Below are positions 8,193 to 47,200 of a DNA stretch of 60,977 bases, piece after piece; the stretch's first letter is position 1, and every line of letters begins with the position of its first letter. The stretch lies in the NCBI GenBank assembly GCA_005882115.1, contig VBEG01000034.1, positions 1 through 60,977 of the forward strand. Direction: 5' to 3'. Made by a program: the position numbers and the translations under genes. The stretch comes from Chloroflexota bacterium (GTDB lineage Bacteria; Chloroflexota; Dormibacteria; Dormibacterales; Dormibacteraceae). The notes below the pieces were generated by a model that was given only the letters and a program-made list of their open reading frames with translations, was not told the origin of the DNA and did no database searches.

Positions 8193-8201
8193 GTCGAAAC
8201 G

Positions 8202-8211: not shown

Positions 8212-8221
8212 GGCCTTCTCG

Positions 8222-20089: not shown

Positions 20090-20256
20090 ACGCGCCGTCA
20101 ACCGCGTGGCTGAGGCAGATAGCAGATGAGCTCGGCCTCAAGCTGGGCAACCAGGATCTGGCGCGCCTGCGACCGATGGTCGCGGACCTGCTCGCCGTGG
20201 GGCGGCGTCTGCGCCTCAAGGATCAAAGAGAGCGACCGATTCCGCGATCGTCGTGA
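20086..20256 (+). CDS. AtzG-like small amidase-partner protein
   Basis: A 56-residue protein with two predicted helices (AWLRQIADELGLKL and ARLRPMVADLLAVGRRLR). Size, helix spacing and position directly before an amidase match the AtzG/DUF4089 family, GatC-like subunits that bind and solubilise AtzE-type amidases. The start overlaps the aldolase stop (ATGA) and the stop overlaps the amidase start (GTGA), so the three are probably coupled. The assignment rests on length, pattern and context. Short proteins of this kind are often missed in annotation. Confidence 0.65.
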   Translation: MNAPSTAWLRQIADELGLKLGNQDLARLRPMVADLLAVGRRLRLKDQRERPIPRSS

Positions 20257-26028: not shown

Positions 26029-26646
26029 CTACACCTCCATCTCCGCCAGTGCATCGCGCGCGGTTACCACGCGGCCGTACTTCATGGCCAGCGTTTGCAG
26101 ACTAGCCTTCTGCAGCTCGGGCGCGTCAGAGGAGACGGCGTCGGACACCACCGCGGCCTGGAACCCTTCGTGAAAAGCCCCACGCGCTGTGTCCTCGACG
26201 CAGATCTGCGTCACCGTCCCGGTGATCAACACGGTGTCCACATGGTGCGCGGTGAGCAGGTCCGTGAGCCTGGTCCGGTGGAAGCCGTTGTACCCGTACT
26301 TGTCCACTTGATGCTCCTGGGGCCTAGGTGCAAGCTCATCGATGATGGCGATGCACTCGCGCTCGCCATCTATGTCGTCGTACGCACGTTTGAACCCTGG
26401 CCAGCAGCAGCGAGTCGGTGGCGCGATGACCGGCGACCACTTCCACATCAGCGTCGGTTGTGGTCCTGCACAGAACCGCGTAAACACAATCGGCCGGCGC
26501 CGGGCCCGGAACCATTCCAACAGCACCAGGTGCACGTCGATGGTCTCGCGGGCGTCGGGCACCTCGAGCGGGGCGCCGACCCTGACGAAGTCGTTCTGCA
26601 TGTCCACCACGATGAGCGCGGAGCTGTCCTGGCGCAGCTCGAACAC
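26029..26646 (-). CDS. Isochorismatase-family cysteine hydrolase
   Basis: A 205-residue amidohydrolase of the isochorismatase fold. The catalytic triad is visible: Asp15 in VVDMQNDF, Lys in VDKYGYNGF near 110 and Cys in VTQICVEDTARGA near 146. I choose GTG 26646, because TAGCTT lies 7 nt upstream and the first beta strand starts at residue 9. TTG 26655 is possible. The stop lies next to the start of the PLP enzyme gene. Family members hydrolyse amides such as N-carbamoyl compounds, ureidoacrylate or nicotinamide, so it could release an amide-protected amine. Confidence 0.87.
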   Translation of the reverse strand: MFELRQDSSALIVVDMQNDFVRVGAPLEVPDARETIDVHLVLLEWFRARRRPIVFTRFCAGPQPTLMWKWSPVIAPPTRCCWPGFKRAYDDIDGERECIAIIDELAPRPQEHQVDKYGYNGFHRTRLTDLLTAHHVDTVLITGTVTQICVEDTARGAFHEGFQAAVVSDAVSSDAPELQKASLQTLAMKYGRVVTARDALAEMEV

Positions 26647-26653
26647 GATCAGC

Positions 26654-26663
26654 AAGCTAACAT
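26654..26663. promoter_or_regulatory. Overlapping divergent -10 elements, both 7 nt from a start
   Basis: On the minus strand TAGCTT (26659-26654) ends 7 nt before the GTG at 26646. On the plus strand TAACAT (26658-26663) ends 7 nt before the ATC at 26671. The hexamers overlap by two bases. The symmetry suggests one bidirectional promoter serving two leaderless mRNAs. Confidence 0.42.
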
Positions 26664-26670
26664 CCCCGGC

Positions 26671-27897
26671 ATCGAGACGTCCGCTTTCGCATTCGCCGGC
26701 GACCTGGTGGACGAGGGGATGGCGACCGTCCTGGACAACATCGCCGGCCGCGGAGGGCTGGGCGGCGTCACCATGGCCGCCGCCTATCACCACGGACGGG
26801 ACATCTTCCCGCACAACCCAACGCGCAAGGTCCAATTCCTGGAAGGCGGCGCTGTGTTCTTCCGGCCTGATCCCGACCGCTACAAGGGCGTCGGCCTGGA
26901 ACCGGTGGTCAGCAAACTCACGCAGCGATCCGATGTCCTCGCCGATCTCTGCCGTGAAGGCGACGCGCGACGGCTCCGGGTCCGTGCCTGGACCGTATAT
27001 CTCCACAACTACACCCTCGGTGAGGCCCACCCCGAGTGCGCCTGCCGAAACGCTTTCGGGGACCGCCACCTGACCGACCTCTGCCCCTCCAACCCGCGAG
27101 TGCGCGCCTATGTCACAGCGCTCACCAGCGACATCGCGTCCAGGGGCGTGGCCTCCGTCGTCGCGGAGTCGCTCCACTTTCACGGGCTCGAACATGGCTT
27201 CCATCACGAGCGCTATTTCATCGAGCTCGGCGCGTTCGGCCGCTACCTGCTCGGGCTCTGTTTCTGCGACCACTGTCTGGCGGCAGCGGAAAGGCGCGGG
27301 GTGCAAGCCAAAACGCTGCGCGAGGAAGCGCGCCGCGAGCTCGAACGCCGTTTCGCCAGTGCCCCCGCGCCAGACGATGCGGAACTGGCCCAGGCCGATG
27401 TGGCCGCTTTCGCCGGAGGCGAGCTCGGCGGCTACCTACAGGCCAGAGCCGATACCGTCGCCTCGCTCGCCGGCGAGGCCGCCGACGCGGCCGCCAACGA
27501 GGGTGCCACGTTCGCCTTCATCGATCTCTCGGGAGCCGTCAAGGGCTACGCCACCGGGCGCCCGACAGGTGACGCTGCGCCCACGATCGCCTGGCAGTTC
27601 GGGATCGACGTCGGCGCGGTGGCTGCTGCCTGTGGGCAGGTCGAGGCGATCGGCTACGCGGCCGACCCCGAGCGGCTTAGCCTCGACCTCGGCGCCTACG
27701 GATCCAGCATGGGCAACTCGAACAGGTTGTCGGTGATCCTGCGCCCCATGGCGCCGGATTGCGATTCCGCCGACAACCTGGCCGCAAAGCTTGCGATCGC
27801 GCGTGATGCGGGCGCGGTCGAGGTGGGCTTCTACCACTACGGCTTCATGCGGTTGGAATCGCTCGACCTGATCAGGTCGGCCCTGGAGCTTCGCTAG
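26671..27897 (+). CDS. Uncharacterised glycoside-hydrolase-like TIM-barrel protein (probable AUC start)
   Basis: About 408 residues with TIM-barrel features. An early TMAAAYHHGRDIFPHNP segment is followed by a middle ESLHFHGLEHGFHHERYF and the motif LCFCDHC, a Cys arrangement seen in putative glycoside hydrolases of the COG1649-like group. The first beta strand (ETSAFAFAGDLVDEG) lies upstream of every ATG or GTG. ATC 26671 is the first codon after a -10 at 7 nt. If only canonical starts count, GTG 26707 or ATG 26719 apply. Its stop shares CTAG with the D-aminoacylase gene. I do not know its reaction. Confidence 0.7.
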   Translation: METSAFAFAGDLVDEGMATVLDNIAGRGGLGGVTMAAAYHHGRDIFPHNPTRKVQFLEGGAVFFRPDPDRYKGVGLEPVVSKLTQRSDVLADLCREGDARRLRVRAWTVYLHNYTLGEAHPECACRNAFGDRHLTDLCPSNPRVRAYVTALTSDIASRGVASVVAESLHFHGLEHGFHHERYFIELGAFGRYLLGLCFCDHCLAAAERRGVQAKTLREEARRELERRFASAPAPDDAELAQADVAAFAGGELGGYLQARADTVASLAGEAADAAANEGATFAFIDLSGAVKGYATGRPTGDAAPTIAWQFGIDVGAVAAACGQVEAIGYAADPERLSLDLGAYGSSMGNSNRLSVILRPMAPDCDSADNLAAKLAIARDAGAVEVGFYHYGFMRLESLDLIRSALELR

Positions 27898-29435
27898 GTA
27901 CGGCCTACGATCTTTCCCGGCAGGCTGCCGGTAGGGACTCCGTCATGGACCACGACCTCGCCGTTGACGATCACGTGGGCGATCCCGGATGGCGAGACGC
28001 GGCCGTTGTCCCAGGTGCTCAGGTCCGCCAAGCCGTCGGGGTCGAATACGGTGACGTCGGCGGCACGACCGGCGACCAGCAGACCGCGATCGCGGAGCGA
28101 GAAACGCTCGGCCGGGAAGCCGGTGATCTTGCGCACGGCCTGCTCCAGCGTGAGCGCGCCGCTTCGCACATATTCGCCGGCGATCCTCGCGAATGTGCCG
28201 AAGCCGCGACGGTGGGGACGCGTGCCCATGTAGATGCCGTCGGTCGAGCCGATGTAGAGGGGATGCGCGAGCGTGCGCCGGATCAGCCCCTCGCCGTCGA
28301 GGGAGTCGGGCCAGTGGTACACGGCGAGCGCACGTCCCGCATGTCGGGCGAGCAGCTCGAACAGGCAATCGACGTCCGCCTGCCGGGCCTCGCGCGCGAG
28401 GTCGCCAAGGCGCCGGCCCTCTAGCTCCTCCCCACCCTCGACCGAGCTGAGCATGATGTCCCCTCGCTCCCGGATGCGCTCCGCGGTCTCGGCACGCAGC
28501 TGCTCGCGTTGCGGCGGATCGGTCAGCTGACGCATCGATGAGGCGTAGCCGCCGGCTTGCGACCACTCGGGCAGCATCATCAGCAGGTGGGTGCACGCGG
28601 CGGTGTACGGGTACATGTCGAAGGTGACATCGACGCCCTTCTGCTGCGCCTCGTCGAGTAGCTCGGCAGCCGTGTCGTCCACCGCGAGATGGGAGATGTG
28701 AACCTTCACGCCTGACTCGCGTCCGATCTGAAAGCTCTCCCCGGAACCGCGCGCCAGCCGGCTCCAGTAGCCGCGCTGATGGGGCGCGTACACCCCGCCG
28801 GCCGACGCGACGACGCGGCAAAGGGCGACGAGCTCGTCCACAGGCGACAGGGCGCCGGGCTGATATTCGAGGCCCGCGGCCATGCCCACGGCCCCCGCCT
28901 CGAGCCAGTCGACCAGGCTGCTTATCATCGCGGCCATCTGCTCCGAGGACGACGGCTCCGCCCCCCACCCCATCGCCCCGGCCTTGATCGCAAGGTGAGG
29001 CGCCTGCGGCACGAGGTTGTTGGGAATCCGGTCGCGGAAGATCGCGAGATAGTCCGCCACGCTGGTCCAGTCCCAACCGATGTCGGGATCTCCGTAGAAA
29101 ACCTGCAGGTAGTCCTTCACCTCGCGCAGCCGATCAGGCTGCAGCGGCGCCCAGCTGAAGCCGTCAGGCGACATCAGCTCCGTGGTGACGCCGTCGAGAA
29201 CACCCGCGAACTGGTCGCTTCCGCCAAGTCGCGCCAGTTCGGAGTGGACGTGCACGTCGATGAACCCCGGGGCGACGATCCGGCCTTTCGCGTCGATGAC
29301 ACACCCGGCGGTGGCGTCCGCGATGCGGTCGACCGCGGCGATCTTTCCACCAACGATGCCGACGTCCAGGCGGGACCGAGGCGTGCCGGTGCCATCGACG
29401 ACATCGCCGCCGGCGATGAGGATGTCGAGCTCCAA
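27894..29435 (-). CDS. N-acyl-D-amino-acid deacylase family (amidohydrolase 3)
   Basis: A 513-residue zinc amidohydrolase that hydrolyses N-acyl-D-amino acids or related imides. The metal motif HVHSE lies near residue 68, SHLAVDD near 250, and the late STDGIYMG and RRGFGTFARI near 420-440 match the D-aminoacylase group. The TTG start at 29435 is three bases after the SDR stop, with GGAG 8 nt upstream. It is the last gene of the twelve-gene operon beginning at 40026. Its stop overlaps the convergent TIM-barrel gene in CTAG. Confidence 0.88.
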   Translation of the reverse strand: MELDILIAGGDVVDGTGTPRSRLDVGIVGGKIAAVDRIADATAGCVIDAKGRIVAPGFIDVHVHSELARLGGSDQFAGVLDGVTTELMSPDGFSWAPLQPDRLREVKDYLQVFYGDPDIGWDWTSVADYLAIFRDRIPNNLVPQAPHLAIKAGAMGWGAEPSSSEQMAAMISSLVDWLEAGAVGMAAGLEYQPGALSPVDELVALCRVVASAGGVYAPHQRGYWSRLARGSGESFQIGRESGVKVHISHLAVDDTAAELLDEAQQKGVDVTFDMYPYTAACTHLLMMLPEWSQAGGYASSMRQLTDPPQREQLRAETAERIRERGDIMLSSVEGGEELEGRRLGDLAREARQADVDCLFELLARHAGRALAVYHWPDSLDGEGLIRRTLAHPLYIGSTDGIYMGTRPHRRGFGTFARIAGEYVRSGALTLEQAVRKITGFPAERFSLRDRGLLVAGRAADVTVFDPDGLADLSTWDNGRVSPSGIAHVIVNGEVVVHDGVPTGSLPGKIVGRT

Positions 29436-29437
29436 CG

Positions 29438-30250
29438 TCAGGACTCCAGGTCTTCGCTTCCCGCCTGAGCCAGCAGCTCCCGCGTCATGCGGTAGTTGCC
29501 GGCCAGCAAGCCGCCGTCGACCCGGAGCACGGTGCCCGTGATCCACGCCGCCTCATCCGAAGCCAGGAACATCGCCGCGTTCGCAATATCGTCAGGCTCA
29601 CCCACCCGGCCGAGCGGATACCACTTGACGAGACGCTCGAAGACTACGGGGTCGCGGTCGACCCGCTCCTGCCAGATCGGCGTCCTGATCGTGCCCGGCG
29701 CGATGGCGTTGCACCGAATCCCGTACCCGCCGTAACGGACGGCTATGCCCTGGGTGAGGTTGATCATCCCCGCCTTGGCTGCGCTGTAAGCCTCGTTGCC
29801 TAGCGCCGACAGACCGTTGACCGAGGCGATGTTGACGATCACGCCGGCACGTCGTTCGATCATCGATGGCAGCACGGCCTTGCTGCAGAGGAACACGCTC
29901 TTCAGCACCACGGACACATCTCGATCCCACGTGGGCTCCTCGATCTCGAGCACGTCATCGCCATCGGCGATCGCGGCGTTGTTGACCAGCACGTCGACGG
30001 GGCCGAGGCGCGAGGTGACCTCGCCGACCATCGTGGCGACGTCGGCGCCGACGCTGACGTCAGCCCGGACTGCGACCGCGTGACCGTCGGTCTGCGCGAT
30101 CTCACCGGCGCATTCAGCTGCGCGATCTCCATGCCAGTCGACGACCGCGACCCTGGCGCCCTCGGCGGCAAATCTCTTCGCCATCACCTTGCCGATCCCC
30201 GAGCCGGCGCCGGTGATGACGACGACCTTGTCTGCGAACCGCGTCGCCAT
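29438..30250 (-). CDS. Short-chain dehydrogenase/reductase
   Basis: A 270-residue classical SDR. NAD(P) binding is at TGAGSGIG (residues 14-21), NNAA near 90, catalytic Ser in NIASVNG near 140 and Tyr/Lys in YSAAK near 154. Asp at VVDWHGD after the second strand favours NAD over NADP. The ATG at 30250 lies just after the RidA stop. It probably oxidises a hydroxyl group of the compound processed by this operon. Confidence 0.9.
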   Translation of the reverse strand: MATRFADKVVVITGAGSGIGKVMAKRFAAEGARVAVVDWHGDRAAECAGEIAQTDGHAVAVRADVSVGADVATMVGEVTSRLGPVDVLVNNAAIADGDDVLEIEEPTWDRDVSVVLKSVFLCSKAVLPSMIERRAGVIVNIASVNGLSALGNEAYSAAKAGMINLTQGIAVRYGGYGIRCNAIAPGTIRTPIWQERVDRDPVVFERLVKWYPLGRVGEPDDIANAAMFLASDEAAWITGTVLRVDGGLLAGNYRMTRELLAQAGSEDLES

Positions 30251-30257
30251 CAGCCGC

Positions 30258-30638
30258 TTAGCCCGCCATGGCGAGGACGGCGTCCACCTCGATCTCGAAG
30301 CCGGGGAGATCGGACTGGATGGTGGTTCGCGCCGGCATCGGGTCGCGAAAGAACTCGGCATAGATCCTGTTCATCGCGGCGAAGTTCGACATGTCACGCA
30401 AATAGACGCCGACGCGAACCGCATCGGCAAGTGACGCGCCGGCCGCGGCGGCCACGGCCTGGAGGTTGTCTAACGTCTGGCGCGCCTGGTCCTCGAAAGG
30501 TCCCTCGACCTTGGAGCCGTCCGGCCGGAAAGGGCCCTGGCCGGCGAGGAACAGGAAGCCACCGCTTCGGATCGCCTGCGAGTAGGGGCCGCCCGGAGCG
30601 GGCGCTTCCTCGCTGCGAATTGGGATGCGTTCGCTCAT
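30258..30638 (-). CDS. RidA family (reactive imine/enamine deaminase) protein
   Basis: A 126-residue RidA/YjgF/Rid protein. It shows GPYSQAI near the N-terminus, the conserved Arg in PARTTIQ near 104 and Glu in GFEIEVDAVL near 118, which bind the imino acid. Such proteins hydrolyse 2-aminoacrylate-like enamines made by PLP or flavin enzymes. Its presence suggests the operon's substrate is converted through an imine. The ATG overlaps the CocE-hydrolase stop (ATGA). Confidence 0.9.
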   Translation of the reverse strand: MSERIPIRSEEAPAPGGPYSQAIRSGGFLFLAGQGPFRPDGSKVEGPFEDQARQTLDNLQAVAAAAGASLADAVRVGVYLRDMSNFAAMNRIYAEFFRDPMPARTTIQSDLPGFEIEVDAVLAMAG

Positions 30639-32326
30639 GACAGCACCGGCAGGATGACGCGGCTCGGATGGGCGGCGTCGTGGAGGACGGTCTGGATCGC
30701 CACCCGGCGATCGCTCAGCCGGTCCGTCCCAACGGGGTTGCCGGTGTTCAGGTTGCGGTCCCAGTGCGGGAAATGGCTGGAGGAGACCTGGACCCGGATT
30801 CGGTGCCCGGCCTTGAACATGTGGGCGCACGTCCCGAGCTCCATCACGAACTCGGTCACCTTGCCGGCCGGGATCGGCCGGGAACGATCGGTGCCGCCGG
30901 CGAATCGCGCCCTCTGGATCGTCTCCTGGATGTTGATGGAGCGGCCCGAATCGTCGACGTCGCACAGCTTGACCACCCAGTCGGTGTCGGGCTGATTCGT
31001 GGCGGCGAAGATGTGCGCGATCACGGTTCCAGCGACGAGGCGTTCCTTCGCCAGTGGCTCCGAGCTGTAGACGAGGACGCCATTCCACGACTCGACCGGC
31101 CGCTGGTCCATCGGCCCCATCGGCGCTACGAAGTCCAGGCAGCACGACCGGCCGCCCCGGCTCAACGAGGGCGCCGCCGGGTCATAGGAGTAGGAGTCGG
31201 GATCCTCGGAGGATGCGGGCGCCTCTTCGGATAGGTAGCCATCGCCGCTGATCGAGTTGGCGCGCGAGTGCGCGCGAAGATGCAGCTTCCACGGCCTGGA
31301 AGCGGGTGGCCAGTCCTCGAAGCCCTGCCAGCGGTTGGCCCCGGACACGAAAACCCGCACTCGCGGCCCGTTCACCGGATCGGCATCGCGCAGCCACTGG
31401 TCGAAGAACGCCAGCTGGAACATGTCGACCTGGTTTTTGGCCTCGGGCCCGAAATCGACATCGCCGAAAGCCGGCATCCACGGCATGTGGTACCAGGGGC
31501 CGATGACCAGGCTCGTGTCGGCGGACGCGGGACCGCGCCGGATGCCGCTGTAGTTGGCCATCGTGCCCTCGAGGAAGACGTCGTACAGGCCGCCGACCGC
31601 CATCGCCGGCACATCGATCGAAGGCAGCTTCGTGGTGACATCCCACCGCTTCCAGTAATCGTCCTTGGTCTCATGGGCGAGCCAATCGGCAAAAAAACCA
31701 CCCGGAGAACCGGGGGTGAGGTTCGGGATCGCCGACAGCGGGAGCCACCAGTAGTAATCGTTGACCTTGGCGTACTGCGCAGCGAGCAGGGGCTCTGAGT
31801 CAGGATCGCGGCGGCGGGCCACATCATCGGCGAGGAAGGTCGCCCAGGAGGCGTTGAAGGCGAGCGCGAAAGCGCCGTTGTTGTACGCCCAACCCTCGTA
31901 GAGGTCGGGGCTGGTCATCGCGGGGACCATGCAGCGAAGCCCCTCGGGCTTGCGGACCGCGATCTGAAGCTGCGTATGGCCGGGGTAGGAGAACCCATAC
32001 ATGCCGATGCGGCCGTTCGAGAACGGCAGCGAGCCGAGCCATTCCATGGTGTCCTCTCCGTCGTCTGCCTCGGACTCGAACGGGACGAACTCACCACCCG
32101 ACGCCCAGCGCCCGCGAACGTCTTGCGAGACGACGGCGTATCCATGGCGCGCGTACCACGACGGATGCGCGTAGCAGAGGTCTTCGCCCTGGCTCTTGTC
32201 GTACGGCAGGCGGATCAAAAGCACCGGGTACCTGCCGCCACCAGACGGCCGCCACACGTCCGACCGCAGCACCGTTCCGTCACGCATGGTCGCCTCGAGG
32301 GTTTCCTGGACGATGCTCTCAGTCAT
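30635..32326 (-). CDS. CocE/NonD (X-Pro dipeptidyl-peptidase S15-like) serine hydrolase
   Basis: A 563-residue alpha/beta hydrolase of the CocE family: an N-terminal catalytic domain and a C-terminal jelly-roll. The nucleophile elbow is GMYGFSYPGH near residue 114; Asp and His candidates are in VNGPRVRVF and FPHWDRN contexts. I use the ATG at 32326 because GGAGAG lies 7 nt upstream; an ATG 15 bases earlier is possible. Family members cleave acyl esters or amides, including cocaine, glutaryl amides and X-Pro peptides. In this operon it could remove a second acyl group. Confidence 0.86.
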   Translation of the reverse strand: MTESIVQETLEATMRDGTVLRSDVWRPSGGGRYPVLLIRLPYDKSQGEDLCYAHPSWYARHGYAVVSQDVRGRWASGGEFVPFESEADDGEDTMEWLGSLPFSNGRIGMYGFSYPGHTQLQIAVRKPEGLRCMVPAMTSPDLYEGWAYNNGAFALAFNASWATFLADDVARRRDPDSEPLLAAQYAKVNDYYWWLPLSAIPNLTPGSPGGFFADWLAHETKDDYWKRWDVTTKLPSIDVPAMAVGGLYDVFLEGTMANYSGIRRGPASADTSLVIGPWYHMPWMPAFGDVDFGPEAKNQVDMFQLAFFDQWLRDADPVNGPRVRVFVSGANRWQGFEDWPPASRPWKLHLRAHSRANSISGDGYLSEEAPASSEDPDSYSYDPAAPSLSRGGRSCCLDFVAPMGPMDQRPVESWNGVLVYSSEPLAKERLVAGTVIAHIFAATNQPDTDWVVKLCDVDDSGRSINIQETIQRARFAGGTDRSRPIPAGKVTEFVMELGTCAHMFKAGHRIRVQVSSSHFPHWDRNLNTGNPVGTDRLSDRRVAIQTVLHDAAHPSRVILPVLS

Positions 32327-32344
32327 CACTGCTCTCTCCATGGC

Positions 32345-33013
32345 CTAGAGAATGCCGTAGTCCTTGAAGACTTCGCGGATGCTCGCCCCCTTGCGGAGGA
32401 CATCCCGCATCTTGTCCTCGCCCGAGACTTTTTCCATGGCCTTGGCGATGATGTCGTCCTCGATCGCCGCGGGCACGACGACACACCCGTCCGAGTCGGC
32501 GACGATCAGGTCGCCGTCCGCGACGGACACGCCACCGACGGGGATCGTGCCCCGGATCGAGATCACCTCGAGGCGGCCCTTGGAGTCGGCGGGCGAGAGC
32601 CCGGTGGCGAAGACAGGAAACTTCATCTCCTCGATGCCCCAGCTGTCCCGGCTGAGGCCGTCGATCACCACTCCGCGACCACCCTTGGCGCGGGTATGCG
32701 TGCTCAGCAGCTCGCCCCAGAGCGCGGCTCGAACCTGGGCCTGCACCGCGGCCACGATCACCTCACCCTGACGAAGGCCATCGAGCATCTCCATCAGAAG
32801 GTGGTAGGGCTGGGCGGGCAGCTCGCTGACCTCGACCGCGAGCATGGTCGCCGCGCGACCGGCCACCTTGGCGCCGGGATACAGCGGCCTCACCTCGGGC
32901 CGCATCACCTGCTGGCGGTGGCCGGCCTCATCGAGGATGTCGGCCAGCACCGACGAGTAGAGATGCTCCGAGATGCGGTCGAGGTATTCGGCGCCGAACC
33001 GGGCAGAGTCCAT
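32345..33013 (-). CDS. RraA family protein (aldolase/decarboxylase-like)
   Basis: A 222-residue protein of the RraA/HMG aldolase fold. Conserved segments are GELLSTHTRAKGGRGVVIDG and GLSRDSWG (substrate and metal loop), and DLIVADSDGCVVVP near 165. Catalytic relatives act on 4-carboxy-4-hydroxy-2-oxoadipate or oxaloacetate with a divalent metal. It lies between the HDAC-fold and CocE genes, with gaps of 13 and about 20 bp, so a catabolic role is likelier than RNase E control. Confidence 0.87.
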   Translation of the reverse strand: MDSARFGAEYLDRISEHLYSSVLADILDEAGHRQQVMRPEVRPLYPGAKVAGRAATMLAVEVSELPAQPYHLLMEMLDGLRQGEVIVAAVQAQVRAALWGELLSTHTRAKGGRGVVIDGLSRDSWGIEEMKFPVFATGLSPADSKGRLEVISIRGTIPVGGVSVADGDLIVADSDGCVVVPAAIEDDIIAKAMEKVSGEDKMRDVLRKGASIREVFKDYGIL

Positions 33014-33026
33014 GCCTCTCCTTTAT

Positions 33027-34148
33027 TTATGTATGGCGCGCGGCGGGCGCTCGTACGGCCGCCGCCAGCTTCATCGCTTCCTGGATCACGGCTTCCTGGT
33101 GCGGTTGGAGCTCCTGGCCCCCGAACGACGCGAGCAGGTCGAGGAGCGGATCCGCAAGCTCCGTCCGCATCCCGGCGAGCTCCTCCATGATCGCCAGTCC
33201 GCAGTAAGGAACGTACGCCGGCGAGTAGCCGCCCTCGTGGCACATCACGAGCCGGCCGGCGCAAACTTCATCGGCCACGCCGAGCATCAGCTGGGTCAGC
33301 TTCCTGTAGCCGTCGCTCGTCATCATCATCGAGGCCAGCGGGTCCATCGCGCTCGCGTCGAGACCGGAGGCAATGATGATGAGCTCTGGCTGATAGGCGC
33401 GCAGCGCCGGCACCACCGCCCGCTCGAATGCAGCCACGTAGGCGCCCACGCCGGAGCCCGCCGGCAGCGGGACGTTGATGTTGTATCCCTCGCCGGCGCC
33501 AGATCCGGTGTCGGTGATCGCTCCGGAATTCGGCGGGTAGTTGTTGTCCTGGTGGATCGAGATCGTGAGCACACTCGGGTCGTCGTAGAAGGCATGCTCG
33601 GTGCCGTTGCCGTGATGCACGTCCCAATCCACGACCGCGACGCGGGACAGCCCGCGTAATTGCCTCGCATGAATCGCCGTCAGGGCGACATTGCCGAAGA
33701 TGCAGAACCCGCGACCCGTGTCTCGCTCGGCGTGGTGTCCAGGCGGCCGCACGAGCGCGTACGCGTTGTCAACCTTCCCGTCGAGCACGGCGTCGACCGC
33801 GGTGATACATCCGCCGACCGCCAGCAACGCGATGTCATAGGAGCCCGGACCGAATGGCGTGAGCTCGCCGGCGTCGCCTCCAAGCTGCGAGCTTTCGCGC
33901 CGGATGCGATCCACGTACTCGCTCGTGTGCAGCCCGAGGATCTCCTCCTCGGTCGCTGCGCGCGGCTTCAGCATCACCAGGTGGTCGATCAATCCGCTGA
34001 CCTCGATCAGGTTGCGGATCCGCCGCTTGCCTTCCGAGTTCTCGAGGTGCCCGAGGGGCTGCACGGTGAGGCCTGCCGGTATCACCCAGGCGCCTGTCCC
34101 GGTGTCGTGCCACGCGTACAGCTCGTGCCAGACGAAGCCAGTGGTCAC
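33027..34148 (-). CDS. Class II histone deacetylase-fold amidohydrolase (acetylpolyamine-type candidate)
   Basis: A 373-residue arginase/deacetylase-fold enzyme with an intact zinc site. Tandem His138-His139 lie in RPPGHHA, Asp176 and His178 in DWDVHHGNGTEH, a second Asp in GLDASAMDP near 272, and the transition-state Tyr in GGYSP near 315. Bacterial members deacetylate acetylpolyamines, acetoin-pathway proteins or acylated amines. Its start overlaps the LivM-type permease stop (ATGA), so it is coupled to an amine- or amino-acid-type importer. Small acylated amines are more likely substrates than proteins. Confidence 0.88.
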   Translation of the reverse strand: MTTGFVWHELYAWHDTGTGAWVIPAGLTVQPLGHLENSEGKRRIRNLIEVSGLIDHLVMLKPRAATEEEILGLHTSEYVDRIRRESSQLGGDAGELTPFGPGSYDIALLAVGGCITAVDAVLDGKVDNAYALVRPPGHHAERDTGRGFCIFGNVALTAIHARQLRGLSRVAVVDWDVHHGNGTEHAFYDDPSVLTISIHQDNNYPPNSGAITDTGSGAGEGYNINVPLPAGSGVGAYVAAFERAVVPALRAYQPELIIIASGLDASAMDPLASMMMTSDGYRKLTQLMLGVADEVCAGRLVMCHEGGYSPAYVPYCGLAIMEELAGMRTELADPLLDLLASFGGQELQPHQEAVIQEAMKLAAAVRAPAARHT

Positions 34149-35233
34149 AGCTCATCCTTCGTGTCGTGGGGCGCCGCCGGGCTGACCTCCACCGGTGGCG
34201 CCAGGGGCTCGGGCGCGAGGTACGTCTCGTACATCCGCCGGATCAGCGGCCAGAGGCCTTGCGGGGCGAAGACCGCGATCGTCGCCAGGACCAGGCCGAG
34301 AAGCAGCGTCTGGTAGTCGCCGAGCGCGACCAGGTACTGGTCGATGCCGATCACGAGGCCGGCGCCGAGGATCGGGCCGCCGAAGGTGCCCCAGCCGCCA
34401 ATCACGATCATCGCCAGCAGGTCGATGATGCGCGGGAAATCGAAGATCGTCGTCGAGATGCCGCCGTTGTAGTGGGTGCTGTACCCGCCGGCCAGGCCGG
34501 TGAAGAAGGCGCTGATCGTGAACAAAACCATGCGGACCCGGAACTGGTTGATGCCACGGCTCACCGCGTAGGTCTCCGAGTCGCGCAGCGCCGTCATCGC
34601 CACGCCGAGGGGTGAGTGGATGACGCGCCAGATGACGAACGTGGCGACGGCGAAGATCAGGCCGGCCAGGTAATAGAGGTAGATGGTGCGCTGGTCGCCG
34701 ATCGCGTTGCCGAACTGGAAAGTCTGGACCGTGACGAGCCCGTACCCGCCGCCGCTGATGAACCGCGGGCCGGTCACCGCGAACACGCGCGCCAGTTCGT
34801 GGAAGGCCAGGGTCAGCAGCACGACGTATACGCCTCGCAGCCGAAGCGTGGGCAGGCCGATGCCGAGGGCCGCGATCACAGCCACGATCGGAGAGAAGAG
34901 GATGGCGATGAACGGATTCCAGCCAAGGCTGTGCACGAGAACGCCCGAGGTCCACCCGCCGACCGCGAACAGCGCCACCTGGGCGAAGGAATAGATGCCG
35001 CCGTAACCCATGATCAGGTTCCACGACTGAGCGACCACCGCCTGGACGAAGAAGAGGATCAAGAGCGTCATCAGGTAGGTGCCGATGTCGAGCCGCAAGA
35101 GCACCCACGGCAGCACCAGCAGCAGCAGCGCCACGGCCCCGACCGTGTACAGCGAAACGCGGCGCCACGGCGCGGCGGCCTCGTCGAGCTTGGGACGGAT
35201 GACGCCGGCCGTGACCGCAGCCTGTGCGCTCAC
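34145..35233 (-). CDS. Branched-chain amino acid-type ABC permease (LivM family)
   Basis: A 362-residue inner-membrane permease. It has about eight to ten hydrophobic segments and the LivM landmarks NLIMGYGGIYSFAQVALFAVGG near residue 66 and GGWGTFGGPILGAG near 300. I place the start at GTG 35233, which overlaps the LivH-type stop (GTGA). Much longer upstream reading in the same frame is antisense-like. The last residues are cytoplasmic and overlap the HDAC-fold gene. Confidence 0.92.
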   Translation of the reverse strand: MSAQAAVTAGVIRPKLDEAAAPWRRVSLYTVGAVALLLLVLPWVLLRLDIGTYLMTLLILFFVQAVVAQSWNLIMGYGGIYSFAQVALFAVGGWTSGVLVHSLGWNPFIAILFSPIVAVIAALGIGLPTLRLRGVYVVLLTLAFHELARVFAVTGPRFISGGGYGLVTVQTFQFGNAIGDQRTIYLYYLAGLIFAVATFVIWRVIHSPLGVAMTALRDSETYAVSRGINQFRVRMVLFTISAFFTGLAGGYSTHYNGGISTTIFDFPRIIDLLAMIVIGGWGTFGGPILGAGLVIGIDQYLVALGDYQTLLLGLVLATIAVFAPQGLWPLIRRMYETYLAPEPLAPPVEVSPAAPHDTKDEL

Positions 35234-36111
35234 AGCCGCCGGACCTCGCCGATCCCGAAGAGGCCGTTCGGCCGGAGGATCAGCATGAGGATGATCAGGA
35301 GGAAGACGCCGGGCTGCGCCCAGGCGACGCCGTAGTAGACCTCGACGAACGACTCGAAGATGCCCAGCACGAACCCGGCCACGAGGGCCCCCCGTACGCT
35401 GCCCAGGCCGCCGAAGATCGTGACGATCAAAGCCTGGATCATCGGGTTGAAACCCGAGTTTGGATTGAGGAAGAAAAACGGCGAGAGGAGCACCCCGGCC
35501 AGCCCGGCCAGCGCGCCGCTGATCGCGATCACCATGCCGTAGGTGCGCACCACGGGGATCGACATCAGGCTCGCCGCCTCCTGCTGCTGGGAGACGGCGC
35601 GGATCGCCATCCCCTGCCGCGTGTAGGTGAGGAACAGGTAGACGAGCCCGAACAGGGCCAGCGACGTCCCGATCACCAGCAGACCCTGCTTGGTGATCTG
35701 CACGTCGCTGACGGTGAAGTTGCCGGTGATCACCGGCGGGATGACCTTGTACTCGGGGTTGAAAATGAGGATCGCCGCAGCGGAGACCGCGATCGAGATC
35801 CCGACCGTGGCGATCAGGGTCGAGTTGTCGAACCCGGGCTTGCCGATCACCGGCCTGATGAAGGTCAGGTGCATCAGGTACGCGAACGCGGCTGCCGCGA
35901 GCACGCCGATCGGCAGCGCGACCAGGATCGGCAGGTTGAGCCTCGACACGAAGAAGTAGGCGACGTACGAACCGACGACGAAGATCGCACCGTGGGCGAG
36001 GTTCAACAGCCGCACAGCGCCCCAGACCAGGGTCAGCCCAAGCGCCATCAGCCCGTACACCGAGCCAAAGAGGATTCCACCCCAGACCGCCTGCACAAGC
36101 TGGGTGCTCAA
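35230..36111 (-). CDS. Branched-chain amino acid-type ABC permease (LivH family)
   Basis: A 293-residue inner-membrane permease with LivH features: GILFGSVYGLMALGLTLVWG at the first helix, LNLAHGAIFVVGSYVAYF, and GGLGSVRGALVAGFVLGIFE near 240. It starts by overlapping the LivF-type stop (ATGA). It forms the transmembrane pair with the LivM-type protein. Confidence 0.93.
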   Translation of the reverse strand: MSTQLVQAVWGGILFGSVYGLMALGLTLVWGAVRLLNLAHGAIFVVGSYVAYFFVSRLNLPILVALPIGVLAAAAFAYLMHLTFIRPVIGKPGFDNSTLIATVGISIAVSAAAILIFNPEYKVIPPVITGNFTVSDVQITKQGLLVIGTSLALFGLVYLFLTYTRQGMAIRAVSQQQEAASLMSIPVVRTYGMVIAISGALAGLAGVLLSPFFFLNPNSGFNPMIQALIVTIFGGLGSVRGALVAGFVLGIFESFVEVYYGVAWAQPGVFLLIILMLILRPNGLFGIGEVRRL

Positions 36112-36809
36112 CCGAGGTAGCTCTCCAGCAGCGCCTTGTCGCGGAGGAGCTCGTCGGCCGGGCCCTCACGCACCAGCGACCCGGTCTCGAGCAGGTACAC
36201 GCGGTCGGCGAGGCCGGCGACGTGATTCGCGTTCTCGTCCGCGATCAACAGCGACATCCCGCCTTGCTTGACCTTGTGGATGCTGGCGTATATCTGCTGC
36301 GTGATGATTGGCGCGAGGCCCAGCGACGGCTCGTCGATGAGCAGCAGCCTGGCCTTCGACATCAGGCCGCGCCCGAGCGCCAGCATCCGGCGCTCGCCGC
36401 CCGAGAGCGTGCGCGCGAGCTGGCCGCCGCGTTCCTTGAGCCACGGGAAGAGCTCGTAGACGCGGCCGAGCCGCGCGTTGCGTTCTGACCATGTCGGGCC
36501 GTGGTAGGCACCCATCAGAAGGTTCTCGGTCACCGTCATCTCAGCGAAGAGCAGGTCGCCCTGGGGAATGTGGATGACGCCGGCCGCGGCAATCGCTTCC
36601 GCCTTCCAGTGCGTGATGTCCTTGCCGTCGAGGAGCACCTGGCCCGCGCGCGGAGGCAGCAGGCCGGTGATGGCCCGCAGCAGCGTCGTCTTGCCGTGGC
36701 CGTTCGGGCCGAGGACGATGACGCCCTCGCCTTCGTTGACGAAAAGGTCGATCCCGTGCAGGACCTCTCCGCCGCCGTAGCCTGCGACGAGGCCCCTGAC
36801 TTCAAGCAT
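36108..36809 (-). CDS. Branched-chain amino acid-type ABC ATP-binding protein (LivF family)
   Basis: A 233-residue ATPase. Walker A is GPNGHGKTT near residue 36, signature LSGGERR near 135 and Walker B LLLIDEPSLGLAP near 155. His in place of Ala or Ser in Walker A is a known minor variant. ATG 36809 is used; a TTG at 36815 overlaps the LivG-type stop and is also possible. It dimerises with the LivG-type subunit. Confidence 0.93.
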   Translation of the reverse strand: MLEVRGLVAGYGGGEVLHGIDLFVNEGEGVIVLGPNGHGKTTLLRAITGLLPPRAGQVLLDGKDITHWKAEAIAAAGVIHIPQGDLLFAEMTVTENLLMGAYHGPTWSERNARLGRVYELFPWLKERGGQLARTLSGGERRMLALGRGLMSKARLLLIDEPSLGLAPIITQQIYASIHKVKQGGMSLLIADENANHVAGLADRVYLLETGSLVREGPADELLRDKALLESYLG

Positions 36810-36811
36810 CC

Positions 36812-37585
36812 TCAAGCATCGGCGGGCGCCGCCTCCTCTGGTCCCATCGGCATCAGGTTGCCGAGATACACCTCGATCACCCGCCGGTCACGAAGCACCT
36901 TCGATGGTGGGCCAACCGCGATCTGCTGACCATGGTGGATGACGAGGATGCGGTCGGCCAGTGCCTGGACCGCCTTCATCACGTGCTCAATCATCAGGAT
37001 CGTCACGCCGGTCTTGGCAACGACCCGGATCAGGTCGATCATCTGCGCCCGCTCCACGGGGTTGAGGCCGCCGAACGGCTCGTCGAGCAGCAGCATCTGG
37101 GGCCGCATCGCGAGCGCGGTCGCCAGCATCAAACGCTTTCGCGCCAGCACCGGGAGCGCACCCGCGAGCTTTCGCTGCTGGTTGCCGAGCCCGCACAGGG
37201 CGAGCGCGTCGAGTGCGTCTTCCTGAGCCTGGTTGTTGAACCAGAGCGTCGGATTGTCGCCGTCGCGGCCGAATGCGCCGCCGACCAGCACGTTGGTCAG
37301 CACGGTCTGGCTGTTAAAGGCGACGGTGGTCTGAAAGGTGCGGGCCAAGCCGAGGCGGCTGATCTGGTGGGCTCGCAGACCCTGGATCTCGCGGTCCTTG
37401 AACTTGATGGTGCCGCTGGTGGCCGGGTTGACCCCGGAGATGCAGTCGAACAGGGACGTCTTGCCAGCGCCGTTGGGCCCGACGATGGCGTAGACCTCGC
37501 CGGGCTCGACGGCAAAGCTCAGGTCGCTTACCGCGAGCAGTCCTCCATAGGCCTTGCTGACCTTCAGGCACTCGAGGATCGGCAT
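36812..37585 (-). CDS. Branched-chain amino acid-type ABC ATP-binding protein (LivG family)
   Basis: A 257-residue ATPase with Walker A GPNGAGKTS near residue 37 and Walker B MLLLDEPFGGLNPVE near 166. The ABC signature is degenerate: where LSGGQ-type sequence is expected it reads LPVLARKR. Related LivG subunits sometimes carry LPLxxRKR here, so the ATP site opposite may still work. The usual C-terminal LivG extension after DRILVIHHGQ is present. The start lies 33 bp after the binding-protein stop. Confidence 0.9.
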   Translation of the reverse strand: MPILECLKVSKAYGGLLAVSDLSFAVEPGEVYAIVGPNGAGKTSLFDCISGVNPATSGTIKFKDREIQGLRAHQISRLGLARTFQTTVAFNSQTVLTNVLVGGAFGRDGDNPTLWFNNQAQEDALDALALCGLGNQQRKLAGALPVLARKRLMLATALAMRPQMLLLDEPFGGLNPVERAQMIDLIRVVAKTGVTILMIEHVMKAVQALADRILVIHHGQQIAVGPPSKVLRDRRVIEVYLGNLMPMGPEEAAPADA

Positions 37586-37617
37586 TCCTGGGCTTAGTCT
37601 GGCGGTTTTCTGGAGGC

Positions 37618-38934
37618 CTACCTCATCCAGGTGGGCAACACAAACGTGCCGCTCGTGAAGGGCGTCGGCGAGACGACCTTCTGCACGCCGTCCTGAATCT
37701 GGACGATGATGTGCGGCTGCCCGATCGACGCGTCCGCGGTCTGCGCTGGGAACTGGACGCCGGTGTGGTCTACGAACGAGATCGAACCCGTCGTGCCACG
37801 CCAGATCACCGACTCGGTGGCCTTGGCGACCGCCTTGTAGTTCTTCGGGTCACCGGACATGGCGACCGCCGCCGCCCATACGTTGACCTCGTCATAGCAG
37901 CCGCCCGCGTTGGCCCAACCGGGCTGGGCGCCGAACTTGGTCTGGTAGCGGGACCGGAAGTCGTTGCCGATCTTGTCGGGCAGCAACCCGAGCACGGTGG
38001 CCCAGACGATGCCGTTGGCGGCCGGTCCGGCGAGGTTCAGATACTCGGGGACCGATGGGCCGTACTGCTGGTAGACGAGGGTCTTGGTCGGGCTCGCCGC
38101 CCAGGCCTTGGCCATGGCCGCGTCATCGGCGGGCGAGAAGTCGCTGGTGAACAGCACCGTCGGCCTTGCCTGCTTGACCTTGGAGAGCACCGGGCCCCAG
38201 TCGGGCACCGCGCCTTCCGAAACGCCGTCGTTGGTGAGCACAGACCAGCCGAGTTGCTTGATCTGGGTCTCGAAGCCGGTCGCGATCACGGTGCCGTACG
38301 CGCTCTTGCCGCTGATGATCGAGCAGGTCTTGACCCTCGAGTTGAGCAGGCCTGCGTTCAGGGCGCCGTCCACCCAGTACGCAAAGCCCTGGCCGTACCA
38401 GGATTCGGTGGGGTCGCACTGGAAGATGCCCCAGTACTTGCTTGGGTTTCCCTTGTAGCGCTGGACCCACGCGATCTGCGTGTTCACGTTGTAGTAGAGG
38501 GCGCCCGCATTGGCGACGATGTCGAACTCCGGGCCGGAGGCCAGGTGGTAGCCCGAGAAGATGACATCGGCCTTCTCGACGCTGACAGCGCGGTTGAAGG
38601 CGGTCGTGATCTGGTCGGTGGAGGAGTCCTTGTCGTCGATCTCGACGTAGTCGAGGTGATAACCGACCAGGCCGCCTCGGCCGTTGATCTCGTCGACGGC
38701 CATCTTCACGCCGTTGGCCATCTCCTTTCCATCGGACGCGATCGAGCCGCCGGTCGGAAAGATACCCACGACCTTGACGCTTCCGCGGGACCCGCTTGCA
38801 GTGCCTGTCGATGACTTGGGGGCGAGGGCACTGCCCGCCACGCCGCCGATGATGAGTCCGCCGACGACGCCCGCGCCTCCTGCGAGCAGCTGCCTCCGGG
38901 TTATCTCGCGCTGACTGATCGAATCGCCCGCCAC
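37618..38934 (-). CDS. Branched-chain amino acid-type ABC substrate-binding protein (LivK / type 1 periplasmic fold)
   Basis: A 438-residue binding protein. The N-terminus has a Tat motif TRRQLLAGG and a Gly/Ile-rich hydrophobic stretch with no lipobox Cys, so it is exported but held by other means. The type 1 fold is shown by VKVVGIFPTGGSIASDGKEM near 53 and DVIFSGYHLASGPEF near 128. GTG 38934 follows GGGAGGATAAAA. Liv-type systems carry amino acids, amides, urea or aromatic acids. The deacylases downstream suggest an amine, amide or N-acyl compound. Confidence 0.9.
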   Translation of the reverse strand: MAGDSISQREITRRQLLAGGAGVVGGLIIGGVAGSALAPKSSTGTASGSRGSVKVVGIFPTGGSIASDGKEMANGVKMAVDEINGRGGLVGYHLDYVEIDDKDSSTDQITTAFNRAVSVEKADVIFSGYHLASGPEFDIVANAGALYYNVNTQIAWVQRYKGNPSKYWGIFQCDPTESWYGQGFAYWVDGALNAGLLNSRVKTCSIISGKSAYGTVIATGFETQIKQLGWSVLTNDGVSEGAVPDWGPVLSKVKQARPTVLFTSDFSPADDAAMAKAWAASPTKTLVYQQYGPSVPEYLNLAGPAANGIVWATVLGLLPDKIGNDFRSRYQTKFGAQPGWANAGGCYDEVNVWAAAVAMSGDPKNYKAVAKATESVIWRGTTGSISFVDHTGVQFPAQTADASIGQPHIIVQIQDGVQKVVSPTPFTSGTFVLPTWMR

Positions 38935-38997
38935 TTTTATCCTCCCTGTAATGACGTGTTCTTGGACTGCGTTGGAGCCTCTCCCCCCACGGCGGCG

Positions 38998-40026
38998 CTA
39001 CACCTTGTAATCGACTTTCACAGGTGCGCCGTTCTTGGCCGCTGACTCGTCGATGGCGAAGCAGACGGCCATCGATCGATACGAATCGTGGATTGACGCA
39101 TGAGACTCGACGTTGTTCTCGATGCAGTCGATGAAGTGGGCGATCTCAGGCACGAACGGGTGGTGCGTGACATCGCCCGAGGAAGGCTCGATGGTGGGAA
39201 AGGTCCAGTAGTCGAGCGATCCGGGATAGTGCTTCTTCGAGTAGACACGGTTGTTCTGGATCGTGCCCTCGGTGCCGAAGAGGCGGACGTTGAAGATGTA
39301 GGGTGTGTCGGCGTCGAGCACCGTGGACAGCTTGCCGACGGCGCCATTGGCGAATTTGAGCGAAGCAACCGTCACAGGGTCGTATTGGTAGTTCATGTCG
39401 AGCTTCGGACCTGCAGAAAATGCCGCGACCTCGGTGATCTCGCCCGCGAAGTAGCGGATCGCGTCAGCAGCATGGCAGCCCGCGGCGATGAACGCGCTTC
39501 CTCCGAGAGGCATCGCGACCGACCAGGGATAGCTCGGGTATTCCTTCTTGAGCGGATGCCAGTAGTCGGCCTCGGCGTAAATCATGTCGCCAAGCACGCC
39601 GTCGGCCTGGAGCTTTTTGACCGTCACGAACTGGGGATTCCAGCGGAGCACAAACGAGGTGACGCTCTTCACCTTGGCGTCGGTCACCGCCTTGTGGATC
39701 CGGCGCACGCCCGCGTAGTCGAGGGCGATCGGCTTCTCGATGACCACGTGCCGGCCTGACTTGGCTGCCCGCTCGAGCTGCGCCGGCCGTACGTCGGGCG
39801 GGGTGCACGAGGCGACGATCTTGACGCGGTCGTCCTCAAAGAGCTCGTCCTCAGTCTCGTACTCACGGGCTTCGACGCCGTGCTGCTTCATCAGGCGGCC
39901 GGCCTTGCCGGGCGTCCGGTTGTAGACGCCGGCCACCTCCGTCAGCGGGTGGTCGCGAAAGGCCTTGACATATTCACCGGCCACCCAGCCGGCCCCGAGA
40001 ATGGCTACTCCGTACTTCTTAGCCAC
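38998..40026 (-). CDS. Gfo/Idh/MocA family NAD(P)-dependent oxidoreductase
   Basis: A 342-residue oxidoreductase with the Rossmann motif AILGAGWVAGEY (residues 8-19), the catalytic EKPIALD near 96 and the GCHAADAIRYF helix with the catalytic His near 182. It acts on sugars, inositols or cyclic polyols. The start is GTG with GGGAGGG upstream. It is the first gene of the twelve-gene operon, directly behind a near-consensus promoter, and is 63 bp from the binding-protein gene. Confidence 0.9.
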   Translation of the reverse strand: MAKKYGVAILGAGWVAGEYVKAFRDHPLTEVAGVYNRTPGKAGRLMKQHGVEAREYETEDELFEDDRVKIVASCTPPDVRPAQLERAAKSGRHVVIEKPIALDYAGVRRIHKAVTDAKVKSVTSFVLRWNPQFVTVKKLQADGVLGDMIYAEADYWHPLKKEYPSYPWSVAMPLGGSAFIAAGCHAADAIRYFAGEITEVAAFSAGPKLDMNYQYDPVTVASLKFANGAVGKLSTVLDADTPYIFNVRLFGTEGTIQNNRVYSKKHYPGSLDYWTFPTIEPSSGDVTHHPFVPEIAHFIDCIENNVESHASIHDSYRSMAVCFAIDESAAKNGAPVKVDYKV

Positions 40027-40055
40027 AATTCCACGCCCTCCCCAAGACAGTGGGT

Positions 40056-40084
40056 AGCCTAGGTAGCCCTGACCACGGTGTCAA
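40056..40084 (-). promoter_or_regulatory. Near-consensus sigma70-type promoter of the twelve-gene catabolic operon
   Basis: On the minus strand TTGACA (40084-40079), a perfect -35 hexamer, is followed after exactly 17 bp by TAGGCT (40061-40056). Transcription should start near 40049 and give a leader of about 22 nt that contains GGGAGGG before the GTG at 40026. This is the best promoter match in the window. Confidence 0.7.
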
Positions 40085-40142: not shown

Positions 40143-40715
40143 TTGGCTTACGACCGAAAGCAGGCTGGACATCATGTCGCGCAGGCTGACCGACCCGACT
40201 ATCGCCTCCTGATCGGCCGCGCCGAAGTAGCGGTCGGCCAGGCACGCGACTTTTCCGTGCTCGACTCAGCTCGTGCCGCCACGCTCAAGGCGTGGGTGGC
40301 AACGCTGGTCCCCGCCGCCGGGAAGAGACCTGACGCGGCGGCCGTCGGCGCCGCCGAGTATGTGGACGCCACCGCGCTGCTGGTGCCGGCGCTGCGGCCC
40401 GTCTTGCTGCAGGCGATCGATCAGCTATCGCTTTTAGCAGCTGTCAAGGCCGGGAAGGCCTTCACCGAATGCGCCCCTGACGAGAGGGAGCTGCTGCTTC
40501 GTGAGCTCGAGGCGAGCGACGAAAGCGACGCGTTCAACATGGTGCGCGACTTCACCTACGAGGCGTACTACGGCCATCCACGCGTGCTCGCTGCGCTCGA
40601 GGAAGAAACTGGCTGGAGCAGCACGTCGCCGACAAGAGGCAGCTTGATGCCGCCGTTCGATTCCGCGCGGCTGGAGCGCGTTCGCTCGCTGCCGCCGCGC
40701 TGGCGAAAGGCATGA
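40143..40715 (+). CDS. Gluconate 2-dehydrogenase subunit 3-like protein
   Basis: About 190 residues, similar to the small subunit of membrane-type gluconate dehydrogenases (PF13618). The core runs from RDFSVLDSARAATLKAWVATLVP to DFTYEAYYGHP. Most relatives carry a Tat signal, but none is visible here. The start is uncertain: TTG 40143 is the longest choice, and GTG 40257 would cut into the domain. Its stop overlaps the GMC oxidoreductase start (ATGA), as expected for two subunits of one enzyme. Confidence 0.75.
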   Translation: MAYDRKQAGHHVAQADRPDYRLLIGRAEVAVGQARDFSVLDSARAATLKAWVATLVPAAGKRPDAAAVGAAEYVDATALLVPALRPVLLQAIDQLSLLAAVKAGKAFTECAPDERELLLRELEASDESDAFNMVRDFTYEAYYGHPRVLAALEEETGWSSTSPTRGSLMPPFDSARLERVRSLPPRWRKA

Positions 40716-45445: not shown

Positions 45446-45448
45446 CGG

Positions 45449-47172: not shown

Positions 47173-47185
47173 GATTCCCGAGCAG

Positions 47186-47195
47186 AGTGTAGTTC
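47186..47195. promoter_or_regulatory. Overlapping divergent -10 elements (ureohydrolase / DAO flavoprotein)
   Basis: AGTGTAGTTC reads TACACT on the minus strand (47191-47186), 13 nt before the GTG at 47172. It reads TAGTTC on the plus strand (47190-47195), 5 nt before the ATG at 47201. The plus hexamer is weak at its last base. Confidence 0.33.
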
Positions 47196-47200
47196 CGGTC

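Follow-up and report, generated by a model that had tools for sequence, protein, structure and literature searches.

Which compound is taken up and broken down by a gene cluster that joins a Liv-type importer to several deacylases and to enzymes of sugar-acid breakdown? The question is raised by a stretch of 60,977 nucleotides from a Chloroflexota bacterium of the family Dormibacteraceae (GenBank assembly GCA_005882115.1, contig VBEG01000034.1, positions 1 to 60,977), which we call the window. We propose that its central part is a composite catabolic cluster, in which an amide importer and deacylases feed a route from an N-acyl-aminoaldonate via 2-keto-3-deoxygluconate (KDG) to 2-keto-3-deoxy-6-phosphogluconate (KDPG), and we give this reading a probability of roughly one half. 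Judged from the sequence, the cluster probably serves to take up an amino-sugar compound that bears an amide, to remove acyl groups and nitrogen from it and to hand the carbon to central metabolism, by a route like the recently described Ong pathway of Pseudoalteromonas. The operon at the head of the cluster consists of a promoter and twelve genes:

40055-40084, minus strand, promoter TTGACA-17-TAGGCT
38998-40026, minus strand, GFO, Gfo/Idh/MocA-type NAD(P) dehydrogenase that opens the operon (PF01408/PF22725), kept in relatives
37618-38934, minus strand, SBP, binding protein of the Peripla_BP_6 family with an RRQLL twin-arginine-like signal; closest solved structure 3h5l (Pfam and structure match)
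36812-37585, minus strand, LivG-type ATPase (family profiles)
36108-36815, minus strand, LivF-type ATPase (Pfam)
35230-36111, minus strand, LivH-type permease with a TTG start (family profiles)
34145-35233, minus strand, LivM-type permease with a GTG start overlapping the LivH stop (Pfam)
33027-34148, minus strand, HDA, class II histone deacetylase (HDAC)-like amidohydrolase (PF00850, 1.1e-91; PDB matches to HdaH/Kdac-type enzymes)
32345-33013, minus strand, RraA-like aldolase-fold protein (PF03737; under equivalog cut-offs)
30635-32326, minus strand, CocE/NonD-family hydrolase (TIGR00976)
30258-30638, minus strand, RidA-family protein (TIGR00004, over cut-off)
29438-30250, minus strand, short-chain dehydrogenase/reductase (SDR; family profiles)
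27894-29435, minus strand, DAA, D-aminoacylase-like amidohydrolase, proposed N-acyl-aminoaldonate deacylase (PF07969)

Place, strand and family of these twelve genes (Gfo/Idh, Peripla_BP_6, LivG/F/H/M, Hist_deacetyl, RraA-like, CocE/NonD, Rid, SDR and Amidohydro_3) agree throughout with a first-pass annotation of the window. Their tight packing is likewise as described there, with 4-bp overlaps or gaps no longer than 63 bp (in order 63, 32, -4, -4, -4, -4, 13, 18, -4, 7 and 2 bp). Judged by this spacing and by a conserved promoter, which together are the support for co-transcription, the genes from 27894 to 40084 are a real minus-strand operon. The promoter itself had been called near-consensus. 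Its location and its perfect -35 hexamer TTGACA hold, but the -10 hexamer TAGGCT shares three of six positions with TATAAT, giving 9 of 12 against the sigma-70 consensus, and it was not listed in a stricter promoter scan of the window. It is nevertheless, by sequence comparison, a real promoter, since it is the sole occurrence of TTGACA-N16-18-TANNNT on either strand of the window and is kept in relatives amid drifted sequence. In all five relatives with readable sequence upstream of the orthologous Gfo gene, CTTGACA is followed 17 bp on by TAGGCT, TACCCT or CATATT. All of these -10 hexamers contain A and T, and two of the five have the form TANNNT, while most of the surrounding sequence has diverged.

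By conserved gene order the functional unit is larger than this operon. The cluster had been taken to end at 27894; it continues past one convergent gene down to 21618, and the KDPG aldolase (23130-23771), KDG kinase and deaminase encoded there had been overlooked. On its other side, past the promoter, lie subunits of a glucose-methanol-choline (GMC)/gluconate dehydrogenase type. These outer genes are:

26662-27897, plus strand, GHX, conserved protein inside the cluster, weakly like the hypothetical glycosyl hydrolase GHL6, start uncertain
26029-26622, minus strand, ISO, isochorismatase-like cysteine amidohydrolase (PF00857)
24724-26028, minus strand, DTA, fold-type III pyridoxal phosphate (PLP) amino acid deaminase (PF14031; 3gwq, 4e-78)
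23768-24712, minus strand, PfkB kinase, best matches KDG kinases (PF00294; NF041332, 4e-83, below cut-off)
23130-23771, minus strand, KDPG aldolase (Eda), with a start that is probably CTG and overlaps the kinase stop (TIGR01182)
21618-23117, minus strand, amidase-signature hydrolase (PF01425, 8e-105), adjoining KdgK/Eda in relatives
40143-40715, plus strand, GD3, gluconate 2-dehydrogenase subunit 3-like, divergent (PF13618), kept near the cluster
40712-42310, plus strand, GMC-family FAD oxidoreductase (PF00732/PF05199), kept near the cluster

To place the cluster among its relatives, orthologues were sought in 42 genomes of the same family, and every gene of the window was compared with the loci of those that carry the cluster. 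The HDAC gene has orthologues of about 80% identity in seven other genomes, and close orthologues of HDA, DAA and GHX occur in the identical 8 of the 42 genomes, a coincidence with a hypergeometric probability of 8.5e-9 per pair of genes when phylogeny is ignored. SBP is found in seven of these eight, the sole gap being a genome that is 71% complete. The carriers represent at least six genera. Two public metagenome-assembled genomes labelled Chloroflexi, CF_118 and CF_93, hold the cluster. Wherever contigs allow it to be read, the order is Gfo, SBP, LivG, LivF, LivH, LivM, HDAC, RraA, CocE, RidA, SDR, DAA, then convergent GHX, isochorismatase, DTA, PfkB, Eda, AH2 and amidase, with GMC/GD3 at either end; CocE, RidA, Eda and AH2 are variable. 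The isochorismatase, deaminase, kinase and amidase past the convergent gene are kept in seven relatives, and the upper half (importer to HDAC) and the lower half (DTA to KdgK) share the same phyletic distribution and order. Thus the HDAC-fold, D-aminoacylase and Liv binding-protein genes stay together in relatives, and the scattering that would have refuted the first-pass annotation is not seen. Two pillars of its argument do not stand: G077, G091, G104 and G105 have no CocE, while RidA is missing from G088, G089 and G099 and a fragment or decayed in G077 and G091, and we have therefore rejected both as core parts. In G099 (L143:10348-11573) the neighbours of the kinase include a creatininase-like gene and a further RidA-family gene (36%), which possibly replace the lost RidA and aldolase. 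The kinase of G105 (L115:12274-13143) and the amidase of G088 (L121:5815-7208) match in pieces in different frames, which could reflect sequencing-error frameshifts or decay.

What the cluster may do can be put together from its enzyme families. The importer, judged by its kin, would take in an amide-bearing amino-sugar compound. GMC/GD3, Gfo/Idh and the SDR would oxidize the sugar, probably to an aldonate. The HDAC-fold enzyme, the amidase, the isochorismatase-like protein and DAA belong to unrelated acyl- or amide-hydrolysing families and are the candidates for removing such groups from presumed amino-sugar substrates. DTA would then deaminate a 2-amino-2-deoxy-aldonate, and RidA, where present, would clear the enamine or imine, by analogy with the reaction of OngC. 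The PfkB kinase is predicted from its family to phosphorylate a 2-keto-3-deoxygluconate-type acid, and Eda would split KDPG into pyruvate and glyceraldehyde-3-phosphate. Support comes from the lower half, where an OngC-like deaminase, a KDG-kinase-like PfkB protein and an Eda that scores over the curated cut-off (TIGR01182, 189.7 bits against 156.05) are contiguous in the window. Since KDG kinase and KDPG aldolase are part of the cluster, the substrate of the deaminase is proposed to be a 2-amino-2-deoxy-aldonate and not a plain D-amino acid. A DTA orthologue is additionally present in G094 and G098, both without the cluster, and adjoins genes of aldolase fold there (DHDPS family in G098, DUF993 in G094); these neighbours are consistent with a 2-keto-3-deoxy acid product, the function of DUF993 being uncharacterised.

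Several findings weigh against this proposal. The best-scoring function of the kinase is KDG/KDGal kinase, at 279.5 bits against a cut-off of 440, and its identity to the true Ong KdgK is 27% over part of the length only. Eda adjoins the kinase in the window, G077, G088, G089 and G091, and was not found beside it in G099, G104 and G105. RidA is dispensable among relatives. GHX, the RraA-like protein and ISO have no assigned step in the route; for ISO the best NCBIfam models are biuret/ureidoacrylate amidohydrolases, far under cut-off, and GHX has no clear Pfam family (the GHL6 match, in a relative, has an E value of 0.039), no canonical start codon near its conserved N-terminus, and an AlphaFold2 model with a mean pLDDT of 45.9 (8 sequences). 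The adjacency of Liv-type importer and HDAC is recurrent and not universal, as most HDAC loci have no Liv neighbours. Finally, DAA lacks two residues that are conserved in its better known relatives, which leaves room for substrates other than N-acyl alpha-amino acids.

This last point concerns the enzyme that the first-pass annotation named N-acyl-D-amino-acid deacylase. Subtype V amidohydrolases are defined by a Cys/His/His metal site and a catalytic Asp, and anchor the substrate by Lys254 and other residues (PMC12017989). DAA keeps both metal-site His, the catalytic Asp and the carboxylate Arg. However, the Cys motif NCG is replaced by PDG in all six aligned Chloroflexota cluster members and by QDG in Arthrobacter and Tsukamurella, whose homologues (34% identity) thus carry the same Asp-for-Cys change, and the motif with the carboxylate Lys, SHHKV/SHIKC (Lys254 in PpOngB), reads SHLAV or SHLAM in DAA and in its relatives from the cluster. 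DAA is thus without the metal-binding Cys and the Lys for the alpha-carboxylate, both reported to be invariant in OngB and genuine D-aminoacylases, and we have rejected it as either of these enzymes; the earlier name stands at the level of the superfamily and fails for the specific function. DAA is proposed, from its context, to act as the deacylase just before DTA and to make the deaminase substrate, because it is the only candidate deacylase in the minimal clusters of Tsukamurella and Arthrobacter. DAA homologues of 33-40% identity in G085, G086 and G090 have no DTA beside them, and the two that can be read (L160, L161) carry the Cys motif, so we did not use them as evidence.

The same enzymes are the basis of the earlier explanation, that the cluster degrades N-acyl-D-amino acids by means of importer, D-aminoacylase and a D-serine/D-threonine deaminase with RidA, ending in pyruvate or 2-oxobutyrate. 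The solved structures closest to DAA are those of N-acyl-D-glutamate deacylase and D-aminoacylase, the one closest to DTA is 3gwq, deposited as D-serine deaminase, and OngC is also active on D-serine and D-threonine (PMC9537276). Comamonas and Azospirillum plasmids (L151, L159) combine D-aminoacylase, RidA, deaminase and a peptide-type ABC importer, and probably serve the catabolism of N-acyl-D-amino acids or amino-sugar acids. We nevertheless consider this explanation quite unlikely, as KDG kinase and KDPG aldolase would be useless in such a pathway and the Cys and Lys typical of true D-aminoacylases are missing from DAA. Of the stepwise dismantling that had been suggested, N-deacylation and an enamine or imine step agree well with a PLP deaminase and RidA (PMC9537276), while a D-amino-acid conjugate as the substrate has become less likely.

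HDA is a class II HDAC-like amidohydrolase by family and by its catalytic residues, which are intact and invariant in the alignment (H138, H139, D176, H178, D264 and Y308, that is His-His, metal Asp-x-His, Asp and Tyr). We know of no characterised class II HDAC-like amidohydrolase that acts in an amino-sugar pathway. A second HDAC-family gene, 35% identical, lies outside the cluster (G000:C39:8602-9543) and is present in nearly all genomes of the family. HDA could also be an acetylpolyamine or amide hydrolase that serves to break down N-acylated polyamines or amino alcohols, and the sugar-acid genes below it unrelated neighbours. Elsewhere class II HDAC genes do accompany importers together with glutamine synthetase, aldehyde dehydrogenase and class III aminotransferase, hydrolysis of small-molecule amides, dimethoate and propanil for example, is known from some class II relatives (PMC11532494), and the window itself has a class III aminotransferase, an SDR and an arginase-family gene at 44057-47259. 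Such a role of the cluster is unlikely, however, as its two halves agree in distribution and order and the cluster loci of relatives showed no counterparts of the amine genes at 44-47 kb. These amine genes form a minus-strand row with a divergent FAD oxidoreductase and look like a catabolic unit for amines or guanidino compounds.

The importer had been linked to the deacylases before, and its own relatives agree with that link. In Shinella they lie beside class II HDAC, amidase, GMC and aldehyde dehydrogenase genes, in Roseovarius beside HDAC, and on plasmids beside N,N-dimethylformamidase, beside nitrile hydratase and amidase, or beside hydantoinase/oxoprolinase. Because the relatives of the binding protein adjoin amide hydrolases, HDAC among them, the comparison argues for amides as its ligands. 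We regard as very improbable that this is an ordinary branched-chain amino acid importer whose operon is shared by unrelated metabolic genes. The transporter genes do fall in the Liv family, but the curated NCBIfam cut-offs are far from reached (LivG 188.8 against 362, LivH 113.8 against 379, binding protein 44.7 against 477), the binding protein has only a 1e-6 match to E. coli LBP/LIVBP, and its kin accompany amide hydrolases; a plain branched-chain amino acid importer was therefore rejected. The dimethylformamidase, nitrile hydratase and hydantoinase neighbours, together with the variation of CocE and RidA, would also suit a degradation of non-sugar neutral amides or xenobiotics by broad hydrolases gathered opportunistically. 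This seems decidedly improbable, given a fixed core that is deeply conserved in the eight genomes and the presence of KDG-type enzymes.

Some further genes lie close to the amino-sugar cluster that we propose. One of them is displaced from it in the window:

9388-10491, minus strand, AH2, Amidohydro_2 protein (PF04909)

AH2 is part of the cluster itself in G077, G088 and G104, and is found in six of the eight carriers and nowhere else in the family. Next to it, at 7197-9391, are a DUF993 gene (8207-9391) and, on the opposite strand, a gene like LLM-type flavin monooxygenases; both recur beside DTA in G094 (L141) and beside the cluster in G088 (L121). The DUF993 gene may encode an aldolase-type enzyme of the proposed pathway that has yet to be characterised. 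Between 10538 and 21635 lie an M20 peptidase, a peptide-type ABC transporter, a metallo-beta-lactamase-fold gene and a second amidase (20253-21635), a block also seen near the cluster or its parts in G099 (L143) and G104 (L117). The genome also encodes two GH18 proteins and a second protein of the KDPG aldolase family.

For a so far anonymous cluster of uncultured Chloroflexota that are abundant in soil, the analysis offers a concrete and testable proposal of function. Breakdown of amino-sugar acids without prior phosphorylation has been reported almost only from Gammaproteobacteria, and from one Betaproteobacterium; the cluster suggests that it is more widespread, with other deacylases and importers. 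A bacterial class II HDAC-like enzyme would probably act here in the scavenging of carbon and nitrogen rather than in protein deacetylation, and amides are offered as the substrate class for a subfamily of Liv-type binding proteins that are usually annotated as branched-chain amino acid importers.

Parts of the cluster resemble systems in other bacteria. HDA is similar over its full length to HdaH, to the dimethoate hydrolase DmhA and to the propanil hydrolase PrpH, all class II HDAC-like enzymes. A junction of HDAC and Liv-type importer as in the window occurs in Shinella, Roseovarius, Variovorax, Ruegeria, Mesorhizobium, Bradyrhizobium and others, many other HDAC genes adjoining other transporters. 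In the alphaproteobacterial operons of Shinella (L124, L130) the order is amidase, SBP, LivGFHM, GMC, aldehyde dehydrogenase and class II HDAC. HDAC identity to these two, Variovorax (L131), Ruegeria (L133) and Roseovarius (L128) is 47-59%, often with amidase and GMC oxidoreductase nearby. Unlike the window cluster, the stretches examined from Shinella, Variovorax, Ruegeria and Roseovarius show no homologue of DTA, KdgK, Eda or DAA. Our literature search on the Liv/HDAC/GMC system found only unrelated papers, and on the sugar-acid side two ong papers were directly relevant; a haloarchaeal genome paper predicts a different, phosphorylated glucosaminate route.

The Ong pathway, a route of oxidative chitin utilisation, leads from N-acetylglucosaminate (GlcNAc1A) to glucosaminate (GlcN1A) by OngB, to KDG by OngC and to KDPG by KdgK; OngB-OngC-OngD-KdgK is proven genetically and biochemically in Pseudoalteromonas, where the RidA-family OngD is essential for growth (PMC9537276). 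Shared with the Ong clusters of Pseudoalteromonas, Vibrio and Klebsiella are a deacylase of the D-aminoacylase superfamily, a fold-type III PLP deaminase, RidA and a PfkB KDG kinase; some Ong members have a KDPG aldolase as well, and N-acetylglucosaminate is used there without prior phosphorylation. Against the cluster that we recognised on a Pseudoalteromonas plasmid (L157), the reference for all direct comparisons, identities are 36.7% (DTA/OngC), 35.6% (RidA/OngD), 28.3% (DAA/OngB) and 27.1% over part of the kinase (KdgK). An Ong cluster has been defined by at least four co-located ong homologues with E < 1e-5 and > 30% identity (PMC9537276). Two of the four shared genes exceed 30%, and we have therefore rejected filing the cluster as ong. 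In a tree, DTA and OngC, though homologous, do not form a group of their own apart from other deaminases. The first-pass annotation knew no named pathway with this gene set; the Ong pathway comes close, although the cluster falls outside its definition. There are distinct differences between the two. The importer is of the Liv type instead of the SSS transporter OngIT with TonB receptors, no OngR-type RpiR regulator and no OngA are among the genes identified in the window cluster, the deacylase has Asp for Cys and lacks the carboxylate Lys of OngB, and HDAC, amidase, isochorismatase, Gfo/Idh, SDR and GMC genes are added.

The core of deaminase, DAA-type amidohydrolase, sugar kinase and KDPG aldolase is also found in a different phylum, in Tsukamurella (annotated) and Arthrobacter (L155, L149), arranged as RidA-IclR-sugar kinase and deaminase-D-aminoacylase-KDPG aldolase-gluconate symporter. 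We found no published function for this cluster in the literature. It shares with the window the catabolic core and the Asp-type amidohydrolase; unlike the window, it has a GntP-type permease (gluconate:H+ symporter) and an IclR regulator, and no HDAC, amidase or Gfo genes. Tentatively, and with less than even confidence, we suggest an undescribed route for N-acylated amino-sugar acids common to Chloroflexota and Actinomycetota, in which an Asp-liganded amidohydrolase would replace OngB and to which the Chloroflexota may have added an HDAC-fold enzyme and an amide-type Liv importer for a larger amide-conjugated amino sugar.

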